In this document: piece by piece, positions 18,927-54,800 of the stretch
Layout: every line of letters begins with the position of its first letter
Numbering within the stretch: position 1 is the first letter of the stretch
Assembly (NCBI GenBank): GCA_950022655.1
Contig: OX465581.1
Location: 27,995,300 to 28,059,299 of the forward strand
Source: Alentia gelatinosa
Taxonomy: Eukaryota > Annelida > Polychaeta > Phyllodocida > Polynoidae
Direction: 5' to 3'
DNA: 64,000 nt
Notes under the pieces: model-generated
Told to the model about the DNA's origin: nothing
The model's database searches: none
The model's input: only the letters and a program-made list of their open reading frames with translations
Made by a program: the position numbers and the translations under genes

Positions 18927-21900
18927 GTGAGTCTTAATTTTCTACCCTTTGCGTTGCTTCCATGAAATGGAAGATATTGGCTAGGTATTCTGCGATGTAT
19001 ATTTGATCATGACATAGAATACCGTTCCAGAATTCTGAGAATTGGCCTTGTTCTTCACGGATATATTTATAAAATATATAAATTCAATAGTGGGCTACAA
19101 TGAATATGTCGTTATATCTTTGGAAGTAACATGCAGAAAGCCTCGATTGCAGTAATTTTCATCTGAAAGTGTGTCGTGACTGATTTTTTGATTTTGCCAA
19201 AAATAGAATGCTGTCATATCATTCTTGTTCACAAATGATGGGCATTTCATTGCAGTGTATGATTGTTTTATTGCTATTCCCTATATTTCTTCTATTACGC
19301 AGATATATGAATGTGTGAAATCTAATGAACCAATTATACATACGGATCGATGGAAAACCCATGATCTGAATCCAAAAACAGAAGACAAGGCTGCAGTCGA
19401 TTGGTAAGTCTCTTCAGATAAATCCATCCATACTAAAGCTGTAAAATGACATTAATTACCAGGTATCGAATATAATTTCCTAGAGAATTTGTCTAATTTT
19501 TCGATACGAAACTTCCAGAAATAAGAAACTGAATGAGCCAAAAGTAAAGTTACATTTTCTATATGACGTTTTCCCAAACATTATATTTATTCACCTGAGG
19601 AAGCACATTGAATATGTGCGAAACGTCGTGACTAACTTTGATACCACCATGTACACCAATTGTCATCTTGGCCAATAATAAGATCTGTCAACAAGAATTA
19701 CTGTGTCTGGTTTTTTGTGAGTTTACCTCCATTACATTATATTTATTATTGGAAATGTTCGGTATGCTATAGTTTGCGGCGGAGATTTGTTTATGCGAAA
19801 TCGGAATCGTCCTAGCCCAAGGTATCGTTTGATCAGACGATAATTCATTGGAAATTGACCTTAACGTTATTCAGCAATAGTCTTGAACACTGACGAGTAA
19901 ATACATTGCAATCTCAGTGCCATAGGTAGGCGATGCATCTTACAGTGCTTCCTTGTGATTTAACGAGGACAGGAATTCGAAACGACCAACGTCGACACAG
20001 TTTGGGTTCTTTGAAAAGAAGGCTTTCTGTCGGAATTCTGATCTGGGTCAAAGTAGTTGAAACAGGGTTTTACTATGAAATTGATCTGTGCTGCTGTTGA
20101 ACAACGTCCGATATCAATTCGATTAGTAGAGGCCGTAGTGCAACTTTATGGGCGGAGGTTAACATAACTTCATCTCTTCTACGTTGTAGTTTTGTCAGTT
20201 AATCGACGATGTATTCCACACTAGGCTCAGCAAGGCAGATCCTGAGCCACCTGCTTATCCCATCTAATGACATGATTCTTGTATATATATTTATATATTT
20301 ATTTTGTATTGCCCATCAGGATTTTCCTCTCAGACGTTGGTAACTTCTCGTTCTGGTCAGATGATGAGAGGCACAAGTACATGGTGAGGTTTGGCGGCAA
20401 GGAGTGGACGGGGTACTGGTCATGGTGCGCCGCCATCAACAGAGCCCTCCAGGTGAGGATGACTTTATAAGTGTAATAATCACTGATACAATCGTACCGT
20501 TCATTCTGAAATAGACTTTTCCTTTTGACGTGGTTACAGATTATTCTGACTCATCTTTGAATTAAAATGAAATTAGCTACCATGAGGAGACCGATGTTTA
20601 CTTTCTTATCAATAATATTGTAAACTGTCGGATTCGTAAACTTGTATACAATATGTGTAGAAAGCTACATGTACTTGTACATGAACTACATGTTTGTAAT
20701 CTAGCAATATTGCTCGGGCAGCATACCCTCAGGGATGCAAGTTCTCCGTCAATTGACGGAATTCTGAACTTTCATACCTCCTGGCCGCATTCCTAGTTAT
20801 AGGATATTTTTGATGCCTTGACGGCCGCGCCAGGCCCGGCAACAAAGATGGGACTACCTGGGAACCAGTGCCGCGCTGTCAGGCGGCAATATAGCTGGGT
20901 ATTCACAGGAACCGTTGCCGGCCAGAGGGCCTCATTCAGCGGCTGTAAAACTCTCCCACTGTCGTGCTCACTGCTGACCTGGTTCCTTCTAACACCAGCC
21001 TTTTGGGTCGGCATAGAGTTATTTAAGTCCTTCACTTTTTATCTCATTTGTATGGTGATTTTGGTTCATTTGAGATTTATATTCAAAATGGCAGATATTT
21101 GACGATGTCTTAATTCGACTTGATAATGTTCTTTTGGGAACTCTTTTTATTTATCATATTTCCTAATTAACTCAGAAAATATCTTTTCTACTAAGAGAAT
21201 GATGCTGGTCTACTGTTTTGCTGCTGAACAAAAAGGGGATTGCCCAATCTCACTGAAATAGAACCAGGGTCTGTTTGACCTAGGCACAGGCATGCAACGG
21301 TTACAAGGTAATCAAGAGATATTAGAATGTATATCAATTCATAGTTATTCTGCTCCAAAGTAATGTTATAAATGCTTCTTTATTACAAGGGTTTTAAATT
21401 TCCGACTTTTTCCTCAGTCCTGACTTGCATCCCTGGTATATGTAGTTAATATGTAACAATGTGTTGTGGTCATACCTTGTTTGGCTGGTGTACTACTATC
21501 AGCATGGCCTATTTTGGACAGCATATCAAATTTTGAAGCTAAACCCCATTAGCCTAGCATATGTTGGACATTTTAGTTTTGATTGAGTTCATTCAAAGTC
21601 AGCATCTAATCTTCCATTCGAAATAAGTTAGTGAGTTATCACTGTACAAAGCAACAACGGCAACAACAACAACTAGTGAAAACTGTAAAATCCATGATTG
21701 AAATACCTATATCGACAAGACACCAAGCGACCACGAGTGTCGTATTGTAAACTGAAGCAACGTGTATAATTTTCTGGTTCAATAAAAGACAATATTTAAA
21801 AAAAACAAAATAAAAAAACCAAAACAAACATGTGTAGTAAATCGTATGTGAACTTGTTATGATCAGTTGTTGATCGACTCGGCACTATTCTTTATGCTGT

Positions 21901-24900: not shown

Positions 24901-27900
24901 TCGTGTGAAAGTCTCATCGCTTAATTCCTATGGGAAGGGGTGAAATTCCATGTCAACCCGGCCCGTCGACGAATAAATTCGAACATCAAACGCGTGTGTA
25001 TAGCGAGACCTGTGCCAACAGTGAGAGTTGGTCTCACCTCAACAGCGAGACCACTTATGAAACACAAATTTGGGCTTGACACTGTTGGTGTCACTGTTGG
25101 TGTCACTGTTGCAGTCCTACCTCTCACTTTGACCCCCCTACTAGTGAAACGGCCCCCTGGTTATTGTTGTGTTATACAGTATGAACATATGATTATAAAA
25201 ACATTATTAGCAGGTGGACGGTTGGTATTTAGGTTATGGCTATAGCATACTGTAGTACAACTGCTTGTAGAGTTATTTGGCGACCTGACCACATTTTTGC
25301 TTTTTGCTAAGTACAGCTAGGAATATGATTTCTCTTTTGAAAAGAAGATATTATGGTGGTACAATGCGGGAGGGACTTTCGTAGTCACAGGTCTATTTTT
25401 AAGAACGCCTTTATGGACAAACAGATGTTTCCTCAATATTGATTTACATTCAGTATTAGTTTAACATCTCCATAGGTGAAACTGACAGTGGCCTACACCC
25501 TAGGAAGTGTCACTATTTAGGTGAAATATATATTTGATATGCTATTCATGTATTTTTGCAGAATCTCATAATGGGAGGAGGGGGGAGGCAGCAGGTGTAC
25601 AAGTGGATGGTTTATTAAGCATATTTACACACAAATAGAATAAAACTATTTGCAATATCATTTACCACCAGATATTGGTTTGACATACTTTATTGGTGTA
25701 CATAGGAACAGAGTTTTTCTCCCAGTTTGAGGCACATGATCAGAGGGACACGTCTGTATGCACTCATCCATGAAGGTAGCACCATGAGGCAACTGGAAAC
25801 GTGGGCATTGTTGATTACCAACTGAAATCGCCCTCAGGTAGCTAAATACATGTGTGCACTGATCCATGAACTGCTGTGTTCGCAAAGGAGTAGGACTTTA
25901 AATATCCAATCTAAGCAGGCCCTTCCCTATTCATGGATGCCCTCCCTCCCTCCCTCCCTCCCTCCCTCCCTCCCTCCCTCCCTCCCTCCCTCCCTCCCTC
26001 CCTCCCTCCCTCCCTCCCTCCCTCCCTCCCTCCCTCCCTCCCTCCCTCCCTCCCTCCCTCCCTCCCTCCCTCCCTCCCTCCCTCCCTCCCTCCAGGGGGG
26101 CTTCCTTGTTATAATAGTAATTAATACTGGCAGACCTTTGAACTGTATTGAGTTTTAAATGCGTCCACCCATATAAAAGGAAAATAAGACGCCATGGTCG
26201 TGGTGGAGGAATGCGAGAGGACTGCCAATATGCGGCCGATAATAATAGTGTATATTTTTGTTTTTGATATATGATAAAAACATTCTGCCTTTCAGAATTC
26301 CACAAGCGCTAGTATGGTTTGGAGCACTGAAATATTCCGATCACTTGATGGAATTGCTTAACAAAAGTAAGTTTATGTTATTTGAGTTGGATTTTATTGA
26401 AAACTTTGTATGTACTTCATACTGGAACAAAAATAGGAGAAAACACTAGAAACCGAAATATGAAGACTCATACCGATTGAGAATGAAATGTTAATGTTCC
26501 CAGCATGCAGCTTTAACATTTTGAATATGAAAATTCTTATGATATCATAATCATCTCTCCCACGTATTCTTCCATTCCCTCTGCAGAGTCAAACTTCCAG
26601 AGTGGTGAAAGGCTTGAGGTAGAAATCCGCGGATGTTCCATATGGGCCGTGGAGGTAAGTGAAATGGTCTTTATCTCACCCCTGGTATGTTTTCTAAACA
26701 TTTTTTTCACAGGACCAATGACATGTCTAGAAAATAATGTGTACATGTAACCACAAACAACCACCAACCGGAACCAATGAAAATCCGATCTGGAACGGAA
26801 ATACGAGTCCAGCCCGGATTCGAAGTGAGAAAATAACTTACCTGATTAGTACACGTGTGGAAGTATATGGTCCCCTATACTGGTACCTGATTGTAACGCC
26901 GATTGTATGGTTGCATAAAAAACACTTGTGGTATTGGTGTCATAATTCACTGTATTACTAGCTGGCAGTGGCCCGCACGATAAAAACCAGCTCCTGTAAG
27001 AGCTGACGTGATAGGCCTCTTATATTGCTGTCCACTTTTGTATCTTCTAGATGAATATTTTACAGCTTGCTGTATCTCTAAAGACAAAATGTTCTGCTTG
27101 TAATTGAATGACGGCAATATAGAAATTGAAAAAGAAAAAATTAGTGTAGTCGTACATCGGACTCGGAACGCCTCGTCACTTACGTCTCATCTAGATACCA
27201 GTATTTGATAATTAAATAGAACTGAACGAGAGTTAGCCTGACTAGTTTTTATGCCACGACGGACAGGTCATGTATTACCTCACGAGGCGATAGCCGAGTG
27301 TAGTGAGTAGCAGACCTAACCGGAGTGGCTTGAAAACTAGTCAGGCTAACTCGAGTTCGGTTCTGTATTTATCCTTCCCCGTCTCTACACTTAAGGTGTG
27401 AGTTCTATTTTTCGATTATTCTGTATCACGCTAGCAACATCTGAATGGACATTTTGAGTGCAACCGGAACTTTTTTCGTAGTAGCTGACATCCTGGTCTC
27501 TGATTGGTCAATTCTTTTTATTACACTAGTGGCATAAAAACACTTTATGTCACAGCATGCCACATAAAATTTGCGTATGTTAAGTCTATAGCGGCTTTTT
27601 ATTAGGGGTAGGATAAAACCCTGTATCACCTTCCTGGCTGATCCTCATATCAGAACACCCCGAAAGGAATATCTGGAAGGGGACTTATTGGCTCTATGGC
27701 ATCTTTAACTGATGTTGACCTTATACTTACAGTTGGTGGTGCACATGGCCAAGGCCTTGGTGGCAGCAGACCCCGCAGTGCCAGACGACTTTGTGCTGAA
27801 CTCGGTTCACGTGGATCATTACCTGTGGGACTACCGGCGGGAGCACGCCAAGGAGACCGAGCACGTCCCTATCCACCGCATCCGCTGTATCTACTACTGA
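18825..27900 (+). CDS. QNG1: Queuosine 5'-phosphate N-glycosylase/hydrolase (queuosine salvage protein), complete, nine exons
   Basis: The enzyme releases queuine base from queuosine 5'-monophosphate so that tRNA-guanine transglycosylase can reinsert it at the wobble position of GUN-anticodon tRNAs; animals depend on this salvage. Joining nine exons (18825-18926, 19303-19403, 20320-20452, 22050-22199, 23123-23246, 24040-24154, 26296-26366, 26587-26654, 27733-27900) gives one 343-residue frame with all phases consistent; the human protein has about 341. Family hallmarks seen: NFSFWSDDE and [13 protein letters not shown] (about 75-112), [14 protein letters not shown] (about 132-145), [37 protein letters not shown] (Asp216 in the conserved ADxW), [29 protein letters not shown], and the C-terminal HRIRCIYY. 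The start is the only ATG that gives the family-like N-terminus. No break or missing block is seen. Confidence 0.95.
19303..19403 (+). CDS. QNG1: QNG1 exon 2
   Basis: Acceptor ACGCAG, donor GTAAGT. Encodes [10 protein letters not shown]...[13 protein letters not shown]; the Trp codon is split across the next intron. Confidence 0.93.
19578..19747 (+). mobile_element. Hammerhead-bearing short insertion with 14-bp target-site duplication
   Basis: A perfect direct repeat, ACATTATATTTATT, at 19578-19591 and 19734-19747 brackets a 142-bp insert in QNG1 intron 2. The insert begins with a hammerhead-type motif (listed separately) and ends in ...TTTACCTCCATT. There is no reverse transcriptase frame, so it is non-autonomous or a truncated copy. 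Hammerhead motifs of this compact kind are known from Penelope-like elements and related retroelements; assignment to that class is inference. Confidence 0.8.
19591..19631 (+). ncRNA. Hammerhead ribozyme motif (type I, very short stem III)
   Basis: Reading 5' to 3': stem I strand TCAC; core CTGAGGA (19595-19601, fits CUGANGA); one extra A; stem II GCACAT / ATGTGC around a TGAAT loop; core GAAA (19620-19623); C-G-T forming a minimal palindromic stem III (ACGT); C27 of GTC as the expected cleavage site at 19627; stem I strand GTGA pairing with TCAC. The extra A between the core and stem II is shared with the copy at 63253, so it may be a family trait, but it leaves catalytic activity uncertain. 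The 5' stem I strand overlaps the last base of the target-site duplication. Confidence 0.7.
20320..20452 (+). CDS. QNG1: QNG1 exon 3
   Basis: Acceptor CATCAG, donor GTGAGG. Encodes the most diagnostic block, NFSFWSDDE...[14 protein letters not shown], which lines the nucleoside pocket region in the family. Confidence 0.95.
20729..21437. mobile_element. hAT-like non-autonomous element in QNG1 intron 3
   Basis: The ends CAGGGATGCAAGT (20730) and ACTTGCATCCCTG (about 21424-21436) are inverted copies, and CAGGGRTG-type termini are common in hAT transposons. An 8-bp duplication is not preserved at the flanks (GCATACCC against GTATATGT). The interior, including an open frame at 20818-21100, does not resemble a transposase. 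Confidence 0.5.
22050..22199 (+). CDS. QNG1: QNG1 exon 4
   Basis: Acceptor TTGTAG, donor GTAAGC, 50 codons in phase 0. Encodes [18 protein letters not shown]...[14 protein letters not shown]...AGKVLTE. Confidence 0.95.
22593..22845 (+). repeat. 42-bp minisatellite, six copies
   Basis: Six head-to-tail copies of a 42-bp unit (AGGCAATCAGAGTAAAGGTA then ACTCTTACTTATAATTTGTACT), nearly identical; one copy has GGAG for AGAG and one has TATTT for TACTT. It lies in QNG1 intron 4. A multiple of three keeps an open frame on the minus strand, which I take to be chance. Confidence 0.95.
23123..23246 (+). CDS. QNG1: QNG1 exon 5
   Basis: Acceptor TTCCAG, donor GTACCT. Encodes [20 protein letters not shown]...[15 protein letters not shown]; the next Val codon is split. 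Confidence 0.94.
24040..24154 (+). CDS. QNG1: QNG1 exon 6
   Basis: Acceptor CTGCAG, donor GTGAGT. Encodes [17 protein letters not shown]...[13 protein letters not shown]. The Asp of IADVW (residue 216) is the conserved acidic residue of this block and a candidate catalytic residue. Confidence 0.95.
24303..25160. mobile_element. Nested inverted-repeat element in QNG1 intron 6
   Basis: Outer ends: CCAGGAGGCCGTTTCACTAG on the left and the complement CTAGTGAAACGGCCCCCTGG on the right, with GTGAGACC/CACTGTTGG words repeated inside. An independent inner inverted repeat pairs about 24585-24690 with about 24808-24905 (ATAACCTATAATCGT, GAAGAAGATCGGGTGAA, CTGCCGATAT on one arm). The inner arms flank a GC-rich loop at 24690-24808. 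The GGCCGTTTCAC terminus is reminiscent of PIF/Harbinger elements, which I offer only as a possibility. No transposase seen. Confidence 0.6.
25207..25350 (+). repeat. Interspersed repeat R1, copy 2
   Basis: Diverged copy of 15297-15435 in the same orientation, inside QNG1 intron 6. Confidence 0.7.
25727..25845 (+). repeat. Interspersed repeat R2, copy 2
   Basis: Diverged copy of 16409-16551, again downstream of R1. A partial further copy of the TGTGCACTGATCCATGAA word follows at about 25852-25870. Confidence 0.6.
25939..26093 (+). repeat. CCCT tetranucleotide microsatellite, about 39 copies
   Basis: An uninterrupted CCCT array of about 155 bp in QNG1 intron 6, about 200 bp upstream of exon 7. 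The strand is strongly polypyrimidine. Poly-Pro/Ser/Leu and Gly/Arg/Glu frames across it are artefacts of the repeat. Confidence 0.98.
26296..26366 (+). CDS. QNG1: QNG1 exon 7
   Basis: Acceptor TTTCAG, donor GTAAGT. Encodes [23 protein letters not shown], the conserved helix before the EVEIRG strand. Confidence 0.93.
26587..26654 (+). CDS. QNG1: QNG1 exon 8
   Basis: Acceptor CTGCAG, donor GTAAGT. Encodes [20 protein letters not shown] followed by VE. Confidence 0.93.
27221..27620 (+). mobile_element. Hairpin-repeat family, copy 1 (subfamily A)
   Basis: A long imperfect palindrome (arms near 27226-27252 and 27328-27356; loop with CACGAGGCGATAGCCGAG) is followed by TTTATCC(T)TCCCC and, about 240 bp later, by TTATTAGGGGTAGGATAAA preceded by TATGTTAAGTCTATAGCGG. 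The second half, including TTTATGTCAC and GTGGCATAAA, closely matches the copy at 49597. Located in QNG1 intron 8. Confidence 0.7.
27733..27900 (+). CDS. QNG1: QNG1 exon 9 (terminal)
   Basis: Acceptor CTTACAG, TGA at 27898-27900. Encodes LVVHMAKAL...[13 protein letters not shown]...[10 protein letters not shown]; the C-terminal RIRCIYY is the family's signature end. Confidence 0.95.
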   Translation: MVVHMAKALVAADPAVPDDFVLNSVHVDHYLWDYRREHAKETEHVPIHRIRCIYY

Positions 27901-45800: not shown

Positions 45801-48800
45801 ACCTTTTCCTAGCTCAATCTTTTATCAAAAAGAATATACGCGAGGGGTGGCTCTAATGGGCACAATGTGGTAAACACTATTCTATAATCCATGTATAATC
45901 CAAGAGCAGAACACCATAGATACACGGGGACAATGAAATGTGAATGATTATAGATAAACTCACCCATGTTATGTCTGGCCCTTTGGGATGCAACAATGGG
46001 TGCGGGTTCATATCAATGAGACCAATGTTCCATAGGGCCTGAACTGCCTTACCGAAGCCCTATTAAGTAAAGAAAAGTAAAACTGGACATCTCCATACCA
46101 TGCGAACAGTCAATGTCAAATATAGTCATGGGGCTTTTAAACATGCATGAAATTTGTCAGTGCAGTGATAGGTGTCTACCTGTGTACCAGCAGCGACAGT
46201 GACTACAAAGGTGATCGTCACGCAATGTCGACGTTTGTATTATGCCATTTACACCTTAGAAACGGGAGCCCTTTCTTAGTACTTCTCTTATCAGTTGCTC
46301 TATGTAGTATTAGACAACTATCCTTCATACAATACACTATACATTAAGAATCATATCTGCAACAACCTCACTCACAGGGGCGGGAGCGCCAAACCCGGCG
46401 TCCCTAGTTGAATTAATTGCCAAGCAAATGGGATAGTGCTTTATTTTTCACACTTTAATATGTATGTAATACCTGGATGGTCGGACAATGCAAAATGATA
46501 TAAACAACATAATTAAGGCTGCGAGGCGACGAGGCGATCTGACATCACGACCTGATGTCACGTCTGCTCTCCCTGTGTTGCCAGGCGAAATGCCTGGGAA
46601 CCACAAGCATAACCAACAAAGTAGATTGTAGATTATGTGAAAGGTGCCAAATAAAGGCAGAGAAAAACAAACTGATATTTGTGTGTGGAGGAGGTCAAGG
46701 TTTAGCTGGGATTGGTTCACCAGGCATCATAAACCTCTTAAAGGATTCTCAAGGTGATCAAATTAGCCTGATCTTATGTAGTATGGGGGGCTAAAGTGAT
46801 AAGCAAAAAAAAGCCCACAATCCCCAGTGCTTGGGTTACAAACCGACTCAAAGGCGTTCGTCGATCCTAAAATGGAAAAATTTCCCCAGCAGCCGTGGGG
46901 GGGGGGGGGGGGGGGGGGGACCAATAAAACCTCTTTAGTAACAAACATGAAGGCTGAAAGCTTGCCTAACCTTGAAGCGCAGTGTGCCGCGAATGACGTC
47001 CGTGGTGCCGGGAATCCCGTACGTGTCAATGTAGTGACACGAGTCGCGGTTGGGGAAGCCCTCCAGGTTGAAGCCAGGAAGGAAGTTCATCTCTTGTATG
47101 TTGTTAAGGAGCTGACCTTCAGGAATGTCGACCACTTTGCCGTCACGGAGGAACCTGGCCCCGGCAAGCACGTTCTTCAGCACGCCCAGCGGGCTCCAGT
47201 TGAACTTGTAGCGGAGCGGGTTGTCGGAGTTCTCGGGAGCAGGCAGACCACCGCACCACGACGTGAAGGACTTCACCTGAGTAAGAGTCAAGCAGAATAC
47301 AGAACCAAACTTTCAACTACGAACACAGGACACGGGAATATTCTCAAACTCGACATGACATGTAAATAAGCCTGATCAAAATTTATCGGCAGTGCTTCAC
47401 TTTTAAATATTGCGTTATACAATGCGGGACAGTATACCTGGTAGGCATAACGTCGGTGGCATAGGGAATATTCAACTTTTAAATCAAACAGTTGCCTATT
47501 TCGTATATGAATTTATTTATAGTATTAAGAAATTTACAGGATATAGCCTATAAGAGAATACTAATATAATATCCTGGCGTGTTTTCTTTATCTTAATATA
47601 TGCGTCACGTGAGGTTTGATAATTCAGAGGACTTTTTAACTTAACATTTATTTTCGTCGTTGGTGAACAAAAACATTAACATGCATTGCATTGGACATTT
47701 AAAAGGAAAGAGGTGTTCTTTAATGACGCTAAAACAAAATGGCAACGAAGGAAACTGACGCAAACGGTCAAACTAAGTGTATTTTCTATGCAAAGCTTTG
47801 AGTGTAAGGCCACCGTGGTAAGGCTTAAAACCAAAGGTAACGATGTAAAATAAAGACTTGCTAGGTTTCATCGAACACAAGTGAACGTCAGGACTCTACG
47901 ATGCAGGGAAACGAACATAGACACTAACCACCAGTACAGACATGGCAATCAAATGCATCATGTTCACATTAAAAAAAACAGCTAAAATTTCCCATATGAA
48001 ATTATCAATCAGGTACATCCCTCTGCCTTCGGCCTCGGGATGTATCTGATCAATAATTCTACCGTGTATTTTTGATACGAAGACAGTAAGCCCGTTTCTG
48101 TATATTACTGCCTGTGTGTTAGTCCAGAAAAATTCATAGAGAGCTGATGAATTGCGTTTCTCCACTTCAAGGAGTTCACAGCCTGCTCCTGGTAGTGTTA
48201 TCTGCCCAAATATCCCTATCAATCACGTGACAAATGCAGGGGGCAGGGACAAAAGACAGCAGGAGACAGTGTCTCTATCTGGTGGACACAAGGTGATACA
48301 TGTTTATCAAGCCCATCACAGTGTTGTGGCTCTACATGGGACTCACTAAACACCAACATGGCTACTGATGGCATTTTCGGGATTGGTACAATATTCGCGA
48401 ATGCTTAGTTCAGATTAGATAAAATGATCTTAATTCAGTATAATCGTATCAGATTTGTCTGAAAAACTCACTATTGTGAGAAATACTTTTACTCGATTGA
48501 AAAAAAAAAAATTGTATAAAATCATCGAATACCTAAACCCAGTGCACAGGTAATTTTATATATGTGCGAATACTATAAATACTAGCAAGTTTAAGAAGAG
48601 ACCAGGGCAATGTTTGGATTCCATATTTACCAAAGGTTATAGGACCAAACAATATCTTATGAATGAGCTATCTATCATACATACTGATATAATTTATCCA
48701 TGTATATAACAGGACAGAATACAATCATCCGATCATAAAGACAATCTAATTGAAAACCCAACTAATTTAAGGTCTCAGGGAATACATAGGCATGGTGTGG

Positions 48801-51800: not shown

Positions 51801-54800
51801 GTGGTTTTACCGAAAGGTACATATTAACTAAAGGGAAGTCTTCAATCATGGTTGTCGAATTACGTCTATTGCTTAATGAGATCGTATTTCTATGCAGTAA
51901 TAAAATCTTAAAATGTATGTTATTTATTTAAGATAGTAGACTGCAGATTAAATTTTAACAGACTTTAGCTGAATGGGTCTAGTCGATGTGGTTCAGTTGG
52001 ATTAGTACGAAATCTTGGTCTTTTTGGTCAGCTTTTTTATTTTAGCCAGCACCGAAACGCCTTCTCTGTGTAGGTATTTGACATGGTTATTGCAGGCAAG
52101 TGTGGTTCAACGGGGAGACATTGAAAACATTCACAGAAGGAATTTGAAAAAAATACTACCTGGTGAAGACAACAAGTCTGAGTCTCAAGCGGTCTAATTT
52201 CATATTTAGAACTCAGCGGTTATGAAGCAATCGTACTATACAGAAACATCAACAGTTAAGCTAATTTTTCTGTATACCTACCGAGTCCTGGAAAAATTAA
52301 CAAAGCATTAACACATTATTTGCCTGCTGTGAAATGTGATATCTCCTCCAGTCTCCTGGAAAAGCTACACGGTATGAATAACTTAGAAGGAAACCCACGA
52401 AATGAAAATAGCTTGGTCCGTACTCCACCGAGTTTGACTACAGAGTAATTCACGAAGTGAAGCTGAGTGAATTACTCCGTGGTCAAACGAGGTGGAGTGT
52501 AGACCAAGTTATTTTCATCGAGTGGGTTTCTGATTTTATCTCACCCCGTATAACATTATTTATTGATGAGTAGAATCACCAAATTAGCCATTGAGTATTG
52601 GGCACACGAATCTCACTGCCGTGTAGTACGAGTTCCTAATGTTAAGCCTATGGAGAAAAATACCGGGGTGAGATAAAAAAACAAATCTCGAGTAAGTTTC
52701 TGCAAGGTTTTACCAGTGAATCTGGGGAGAAGACAGGGGTACATCTGATGTGAGAAGTATTAAAATACAGCAAACCTCCAGAGTTTGTTTTCTGTGTAGT
52801 TAGCAGCGATATTAGTCCTAACGGAAAACAGAGCATTTGAAATAGAATTTGGATGCCCTTTTTTTAACCCTTCACAGTTTCTAAGTCATAAGTTGAGAAG
52901 TGATCCAATCAAATCCGGTTTCGTACTAGACAGATTCATGATACCTAAGGAATGACGCCATGAGCGGTAGGCACACAGCAACACACTGTCCAAGTTGTAT
53001 ATTTATCAATCCAGTTTCTGTTGTAGTAAAGTGTGTGTTCCACCGGGGGTGACCTGATTTTGAGACCGTAAGGTGTCTACAAAACATGCTAATGGTGTAC
53101 AACACGCAGGTCTGTTCCACAATCAACGTCGTACGACGGCCATGCGGGCGTCGCCGCCAGATACCCAGCAATAGCTATTTCATTAGGTTTTATAGGACAT
53201 TGGCTGTTCCACTACCGTGCAGCCGATGCTGTTGAGCATGTGACCTACTCCACTGCAACTATATATCTACTTGACAGCCGTGACCACATTGGTCGTGGTA
53301 CCATATAGTCAGACCGGTGGAACACCCTCTTCACCAGCTCAGCAAATACACAACGTAAAATAAGGATCTCTGAGAACCATGAATGAAAATTCCTTACCCG
53401 TGCCCCATGGTCCCGTACTTCATCAAAGCATTGCATAGCTAGCATGTGGTCAATGCCTGGGTCGACACCAACTTCATTCATGACCAGAATCCCAGCTTCC
53501 TCTGCACTGGAAAAGCACAGGTTACAAAATACAATTACTACAAGTACCGTAAATTCCCGCGTATAAGACACGTCTCTTATGCAAACCAAACCCCTGGTGC
53601 GTTATAGGAAACAGAGTGATTGCTAATTCTGCCATCATCCGCTAGGAAATCGTAGTATAGCGCCACTGTAATGGAGGGGGGGGGGGGGGGGCAACCACTG
53701 TTATCAGTTGTTATAATCTATAGATATTGAAAAAAGGCTGAAACTCCTCCATGACAAGCCCCAAAATATTTCTGATAAATCCATTGATAATTGGTGCCAC
53801 CACCTGGTGTTTTAGATGGCGTCTGGGGGAAAGATGGCTGCTTCCGTAGCACAATAGCTACGTGCCCTATAGGATTCGCACAAATGCGGGGCGTGTCTCA
53901 TACATGGGCTTTTCCCGTGGGCAATTGAGAATTTAGAGGGTTACCATTAGAAATGCCTTCAAATCAAGGGATATACATATAATTATAATGATATATTATA
54001 TTACTGCATAATGATACATTTACATTGTCTATATGAAAAACACAAATTTTTTAAAACAAATATTTGTGCTGTGGGAGGCTGGAACCACATTCTTCCGCTT
54101 GAAATAACAAGGTAGGGTGGGTGCGGGAGAAGGTGAGCCTAGGAGCGGAGTGCATCTTATGGGATTTTCCCAAAGTCGGGGTGTGTCTTATACACAGGTT
54201 TTTACCCAAAACACTCAACCCCAGGTGCGTCTTATAGGACTTTTCCCGAAGTCGGGGTGCGTCTTATACGCGGGAATTTACCGTAATTACATGAGGTTCC
54301 GAACACTGAATATGCTGTATTTCCGTAAGCAAAGGAAGACCCAACGACAAGTCTAATTTCCATGCCCTATTAACAAATGAGATGTACTTACGCTTTATGA
54401 AGAGCTGTCATTCCAGGTGATTGGTAGCTGGCTGTCACCATATTCGTTTTGTGTTTAATGCACATTTTCATCACGTCGGGATGCAAAGCGTAGGGTAGTA
54501 AACTGTACACGCAAAACGTATAATATGAACAGAGAAAGCAGAGATATTAAAACTTATGCCCATTAGAACATTAGACTTATAAATGAGATTATAAAAATGG
54601 AACCATGCAATTTAAGAAACGTTAATTTCTGAATTTCATTTGAAATACACCAAGTTTGGGAAAAGATAGAATTAGATAAGGAATTCCATATTGGACGGAA
54701 TGAGACAGCTGATGTCTTTTTTTGTCCCGTTAATAGCTTCTCGGGTATCATAGGTATTTACCTATGGGTAAGTTTCCTAATTTGTAGGTACCCCTTTTAG

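Follow-up and report, generated by a model that had tools for sequence, protein, structure and literature searches.

The locus examined here raises the question of why a short mobile unit begins exactly at a ribozyme. It lies in a stretch of 64,000 nucleotides of the polychaete Alentia gelatinosa (contig OX465581.1, positions 27,995,300 to 28,059,299 of the forward strand; called the window in the following, with positions counted from its first letter), in which an intron carries a 142-bp insert with a hammerhead at its 5' edge. Such an end could be made by the ribozyme itself, by the enzyme that copies the RNA, or by the start of the RNA that was copied.

The insert, its intron and its hammerhead

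The features on which the argument depends are all on the + strand:

19303..19403, +: QNG1-like exon upstream of the insert, with the donor GTAAGT from 19404 (limits by eye)
19578..19591, +: 5' copy of the target-site duplication, ACATTATATTTATT (mismatched-flank control)
19591..19594, +: 5' strand of stem I, TCAC; its T is shared with the duplication, and the source repeat reads ATCAC
19592..19733, +: 142-bp insert running from the ribozyme to the putative internal start of reverse transcription, probably the 5' leader of a Penelope-like element
19595..19601, +: hammerhead core CTGAGGA
19602, +: extra A between core and stem II
19603-19608 and 19614-19619, +: stem II, GCACAT/ATGTGC, with the loop TGAAT (covariation)
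19620..19627, +: GAAAC (19620-19624) and GTC (19625-19627), with a palindromic ACGT in place of stem III
19628..19631, +: 3' strand of stem I, GTGA
19628..19733, +: tail of ~105 nt, with blocks GATAC, TGTCTG and TTTT-GTGA common to 24 aligned representatives
19731..19738, +: 3' end zone ATTACATT, putative internal start of reverse transcription, its exact base blurred by the duplication (copy ends and analogy to PMC11167929)
19734..19747, +: 3' copy of the target-site duplication, ACATTATATTTATT (sequence identity)
20276..20467, +: open frame with the next QNG1-like exon (limits approximate)

The 142 bp (19592-19733) are flanked by 14-bp direct repeats (19578-19591 and 19734-19747) that agree at 14/14 bases, and the edge of the insert coincides with a minimal type I hammerhead, just as the first-pass annotation had it when it described a perfect 14-bp duplication bounding a 142-bp insertion. 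T19591, which is part of stem I, falls inside the duplication, and the source repeat also has a T at that position, so that this base of stem I may come from the target, as the first-pass annotation proposed, or equally from the element. The joined exons of the host gene match PF10343 (9e-50) and PDB 7ugk (2.2e-61), and these matches together with the duplication bear out a retroinsertion in a QNG1 intron, as had been proposed; the nearest named relatives of the QNG1-like protein are molluscan (Patella vulgata, 59%), and its best match reaches 84%. The insert lies in sense orientation in the intron after the exon that ends at 19403 (by eye), has a run of six T in its tail, and is at 142 bp too short for an RT-EN reading frame of its own, so that it is a fragment of a Penelope-like element (PLE) and not a PLE.

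Near the insert, the stretches ACAATGAATATGT and GTCGTGACTGATTTT (direct repeats at 19097-19109 and 19173-19187) resemble parts of the insert; by eye there is no full hammerhead core within 19097-19187, and these stretches are possibly a decayed older relative. The window also contains a long simple repeat of the GGGA type (25931-26305, + strand translation PPSLPPSL) and, on the minus strand, frames at 46935-47291 and 53245-53589 that by eye resemble exons of saccharopine dehydrogenase/AASS.

As to the hammerhead, CUGANGA, stem II, GAAA and H17 are found in type I order, which is what a minimal hammerhead consists of, and stem III is represented by AC/GT only, without a loop. By analogy with the hammerhead family, cleavage is predicted after 19627; the extra A at 19602 adds doubt on this predicted self-cleavage, which would possibly take place as a dimer, and the base at this place is A in 54 of 55 distinct CTGA-starting cores and C in one. 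The pattern CTGANGA..GAAACGT occurs once in the 64-kb window against 0.07 expected occurrences, and a single occurrence was seen in 7 of 100 shuffles. The stricter pattern CTGANGA..GAAACGTCGTGA is present at 461 places (213+248) of the 1.23-Gb genome (101 contigs), and its reversed control at none in the whole genome.

For a test of covariation, all 44 distinct 41-nt cores among the 55 distinct CTGA-starting cores were aligned. Stem II has 63 doubly changed cells versus a shuffle mean of 19.7 (0/500 as high), with 87% of the cells paired, and at most 12 doubly changed cells when the partners were slid; a first count on 32 of the 44 cores had given 50 versus 18.9. Two of the five measures for stem II were not above the shuffles (double-change pairs, 364/500 as high; pair types, 144/500), and as the cores are related sequences, the shuffles provide no strict probability. 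Because of the covariation above shuffles, we take stem II to be a conserved RNA structure. Folding of the core was uninformative on activity. A search with the Rfam hammerhead models gave no match at the gathering score in the whole window and none at E<=10 in 19050-20300, perhaps because stem III is nearly absent; snoRNA and miRNA matches from Rfam in 19050-20300 had E about 6, far below gathering, and were taken as chance. The core order, the 461 genomic places against none for the reversed control, and the covariation of stem II thus agree with the earlier assignment to the minimal type I hammerheads, with Rfam giving no match, and the motif can be seen as a tiny, presumed self-cutting one.

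The parent element and the ends of its copies

Out of 627 scored candidates, the 40 best genomic relatives, i.e. the window copy and 39 others, were read with 600-bp flanks. Sequence upstream of the ribozyme is common to 6 of the 39. Among these, L015 and L018 turned out to be the two ends of one 8.6-kb element in L048. This element has 546-bp direct repeats that are 99.8% identical and both contain hammerhead and tail, with a close copy of the 142 bp at the 3' end of the repeat. As nearly the same 142 bp are present in both of these repeats, the window insert, which has 39 other genomic copies, represents the 3' portion of the terminal repeat of a Penelope-like element. Between the repeats, a Penelope-type RT and a GIY-YIG endonuclease are encoded (RVT_1 at 6.4e-10 and GIY-YIG at 3.5e-8 in one 491-aa frame), and a search with the RT-EN piece gave 1112 relatives at E<=0.001, the best of them 57% identical. 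L048 thus combines an RT joined to GIY-YIG with direct terminal repeats (pseudo-LTRs) that carry a hammerhead, as is characteristic of Penelope-like elements, and the first-pass annotation was right to suspect Penelope machinery. In three other hammerhead families (L067, L076, L077), a PLE 3' reading frame of 52-76% identity is found upstream of the hammerhead repeat, and the link to PLEs is therefore not confined to the family of the window, the one PLE read at length being L048, itself broken by a nested LINE.

The nested element is a 956-aa APE-type LINE frame (Exo_endo_phos, RVT_1) on the reverse strand of L048 (3974-6841) that splits the Penelope RT. After GIY-YIG, and in the same reading frame past stops, there is furthermore a 416-codon frame with C2H2-like motifs (L048 reverse strand, 806-2056), for which no significant Pfam match was obtained; this frame is met again upstream of the repeats in L067, L076 and L077.

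The ends were compared in 107 distinct copies, comprising the window copy, the 39 others, 27 of 30 core-pattern loci (three duplicates were dropped) and 40 further places from the pattern matches listed, of which about 25 places were left out; all 107 were required to have an intact GAAACGTYGTGA. Duplications scoring at least 10 were found in 44 of the 107 copies versus 1 of 316 mismatched flank pairs, and 63 copies have no duplication scoring 10. The duplications have a length of 12-14 bp in 33 of the 44 and range from 10 to 16 bp, plus one of 20 in a simple repeat. In these 44 copies, the inserts start at -14 to +4 relative to CTGA (37 within -8 to +2, most commonly at -3 and -6) and end 95-113 nt after GTGA, where the terminal repeat ends. 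With repeat positions 136-536 as query, 34 of the 40 best matches start at 250-271 and 6 extend further upstream, the commonest start among the 34 being query 263 (10 copies), which is the A of ATCAC. Since longer matches would have ranked first, such starts at the ribozyme in 34 of 40 matches indicate that the 5' end is a property of the copying process. Most sampled copies start at (C)ATCACC beside the ribozyme, in line with the earlier view that the mobile unit begins there, and as many copies with the same core and ends exist in the genome, the first of the two refuting conditions named in the first-pass annotation did not hold.

Long copies were defined by upstream sequence shared with another copy; this holds for 19 copies, from which L078 and L079 were set aside because they match only each other, and in the remaining 17 no duplication was found beside the ribozyme. 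The tail pattern, with up to 3 mismatches, has 81 genomic places. The set of best relatives accounts for 40 of them, and 20 from the remaining 41 were inspected by eye. About 11 of the inspected copies begin at the edge of the ribozyme (two of them with internal deletions), 3 begin inside it, and 6 begin at the cut site or up to 12 nt beyond it. Among the last six, L134 has its tail joined at GTGA with CACTT before it, and the other five start 4-12 nt beyond the cut. L134 (205 bp) lacks the hammerhead between CAC and GTGA, which looks as though copying had skipped from one strand of stem I to the other, and in L059, L060 and L112, CCTGATCAC precedes the core, as if the end of the mRNA had been copied twice.

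The tail has its own conserved blocks. GATAC and TGTCTG (window 19628-19733 and relatives) vary little across families and could pair as GAUAC/GUGUC; RNAalifold, applied to the tails of 24 representatives, proposes a GATAC/GTGTC pairing as well, which is unproven because both strands hardly vary. These blocks could be a candidate binding site of the Penelope protein.

A putative transcription start at the ribozyme

When an enzyme copies a capped RNA to its end, a non-templated G is expected at the 5' junction, as known for other retroelements. For this aspect, 94 short copies were considered (88 of the 107, and 6 of the 20 tail copies that match the core expression), 65 of which have ATCAC directly before CTGA. 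The base before ATCAC is G in 18 of the 65 (28%) versus 70 of 780 (9%) at -9 to -20 (p about 1e-5), a background that is not flat, because G occurs in 1-7 of 65 at -9 to -17 but in 12, 9 and 14 of 65 at -18, -19 and -20, beyond the duplications. The next base outward from the one before ATCAC is G in 1 of 65. In the 17 long copies, the base before ATCAC is C (14) or A (3) and never G, and within the window's own family all 6 long copies have C there, and 5 of 18 short copies have G. Genome-wide counts, made for G and T only, gave 70 places with GATCACC..core and 31 with TATCACC..core, and in the flanks of short copies T outnumbers G nearly five-fold. The 48 GATCACC..core matches listed with letters span many stem II versions, including some whose long copies have C (L076, L094, L125; L104). 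The G stands between duplication and ATCAC in L024, L031, L040 and L128, and after CCT in L060; in L023, L046, L082 and L100, which are 4 of the 8 G copies with a duplication reaching G or ATCAC, it is inside the duplication and hence ambiguous, and 9 of the 18 G copies have no scored duplication. The window copy has TT, not AT, before CAC.

Most long copies share related blocks upstream of ATCACC (ACAGGAAG, CACCTAACCTAYGCT, GTATCATCACC), as would be expected of a promoter. On the basis of these blocks and the G enrichment, we infer that TATC[A]TCACC may serve as transcription start, with ATCACC as the beginning of the capped mRNA.

The insert is thus likely to be a run-off cDNA made on the 5' leader of a PLE mRNA, extending from an internal start of reverse transcription to the 5' end of the mRNA. 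Transcription would start inside the repeat at TATC[A]TCACC, giving a capped mRNA that begins with the hammerhead. The PLE protein would nick AT-rich DNA and then begin reverse transcription within the RNA, about 145 nt downstream, and if the template is the leader of the mRNA itself, copying would run to the cap and stop there, leaving an insert that reaches from the ribozyme to the start site and is flanked by a duplication of 10-16 bp; for a copy of full length, reverse transcription would have to begin further downstream, in a second repeat. Run-off inserts of this kind are what the internal initiation published for a lizard Penelope predicts for an internal start in the leader. As the insert spans the cut site, the hammerhead in the template would have been uncut, or cut and re-joined, and as the cut site is inside the insert, cutting does not set its ends. 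What places the ribozyme at the start of the unit is, we infer, the 5' end of the parent mRNA and not self-cleavage. As the putative promoter is located upstream of them, the inserts were probably dead on arrival.

The same PLE origin could be combined with a different cause of the 5' end, namely that the RT stops, or the RNA is trimmed, at the 5' border of a hammerhead that is folded or bound by protein. In many families, the 5' ends do lie close to the ribozyme, with a scatter of a few bases, but a stop caused by the fold would be expected at the 3' side of stem I, which the enzyme meets first, and the G enrichment before ATCAC as well as the upstream blocks that end there fit a capped start better, so that such a stop or trimming is rather unlikely. 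Hardly credible is a template whose 5' end was made by hammerhead cleavage. L134, which is 1 of the 20 further copies, indeed joins its tail at GTGA, the first bases of the 3' product, and five more copies begin 4-12 nt beyond the cut (by eye), but L134 has CACTT before GTGA, and most copies span the cut site, even if this last point has to be read with the requirement of an intact GAAACGTYGTGA in the 107-copy sample.

The first-pass annotation had regarded the insert as a non-autonomous passenger, and a true SINE-like passenger, which multiplies from its own copies and for which the PLE merely supplies the machinery, could account for hundreds of core copies, many of which are short with precise ends. 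Of the seven internal variants that are common to several copies (edge positions being omitted from this count), two (positions 9 and 66) are absent from the 6 long copies sampled from this family, which would suit such a passenger as well. However, the other five are found in long copies with the repeat as well, across four variant types, and the short copies therefore look like incomplete products of several such parent elements; the window copy differs from the majority sequence by two changes and has one of these in common with the long copy L039. As in addition the 142 bp belong to the PLE's own repeat, being its 3' part, and the promoter-like blocks are present in long copies only, the passenger view was not sustained and is improbable. 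A retrozyme, in which a circular RNA excised and ligated by the hammerhead is copied by the PLE enzyme, is more remote still: the small size, the type I hammerhead, the duplications and the co-occurrence with PLEs are as in animal retrozymes, so far as the parts of PMC7229834 and PMC7761336 considered here describe them, but animal retrozymes are tandem repeats, and a second unit within about 600 bp was found at 0 of 39 loci; moreover, the ends do not map to the cut site, and stem III is nearly missing.

Possible role and known systems

If the insert is a copied mRNA leader, the dispersed copies are retro-inserted leaders whose ends report the starts of transcription and of reverse transcription, and the ribozyme is placed beside the cap, which makes its role testable. 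Such an origin could explain why hammerhead motifs of this type are scattered through genomes, and an internal start of reverse transcription, for which one lizard element has provided in vitro evidence, would then hold for a distant animal as well. A further and speculative idea, to which only a small chance is given, is that the hammerhead, which would occupy roughly +2 to +42 of the capped PLE mRNA, is a self-decapping switch, and that dispersed minimal hammerheads are fossils of failed capped-mRNA copying. In this case, cleavage would remove the cap and the first 38 or so nucleotides of the mRNA; capped, uncut RNA would be translated, and its copying would yield only dead leader inserts, and cut RNA would leave translation, with a leader that can no longer give a complete leader insert. 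Such failed copying would then be recorded in the thousands of dispersed minimal hammerheads reported from animal genomes.

Minimal hammerheads in the pseudo-LTRs of PLEs have reportedly been described by Cervera and de la Pena in 2014 and by Lunse and coworkers in 2017. Their presence in Penelope repeats, and that of dispersed motifs in animal genomes, is known also from the part of PMC7761336 considered here, and with the PLE hammerheads described there the present ones have in common the minimal type I core, the nearly absent stem III, the position in a terminal repeat and the dispersed copies. The A between core and stem II, found here in 54 of the 55 distinct cores, may be a difference from the published ones. 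Unlike in the described cases, the short copies here are inserts with duplications, two defined ends and a G enrichment at the putative mRNA start; neither leader-only inserts nor a G at the edge of the hammerhead were found described in the parts of the open-access literature covered, which is weak evidence of novelty. Animal non-LTR retrozymes are, in the sections of PMC7229834 used here, tandem repeats with circular RNAs of about 170-400 nt; the inserts resemble them in their small size, the type I hammerhead and, when present, the duplications, but differ in being single units.

Closer parallels exist among Penelopes. Those of Adineta vaga, as far as the portion of PMC3846280 at hand describes them, have pseudo-LTRs, an optional 'tail', solo pseudo-LTRs, 9-10 bp duplications in two described inserts and, in one pseudo-LTR, a TCACT initiator-like (Inr-like) motif. 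Pseudo-LTRs, 'tail', duplications, the TCACT initiator-like motif and solo repeats are features shared with the element described here; unlike here, several of the solo pseudo-LTRs are without duplications, and that portion makes no mention of a hammerhead. For Poseidon_Ac of Anolis, it has been found that reverse transcription starts internally, about 85-92 nt 3' of the hammerhead cut, that ATT or AT-rich targets are preferred, and that insertion in vitro does not need hammerhead activity (PMC11167929). The part of that paper considered here deals with 3' ends and in vitro reactions and reports neither leader-only inserts nor a start-site signature, and what it does describe of the element agrees with the present inserts in the internal start of reverse transcription (here about 100-117 nt past the cut), the AT-rich targets and the position of the hammerhead at the junction of repeat and ORF.
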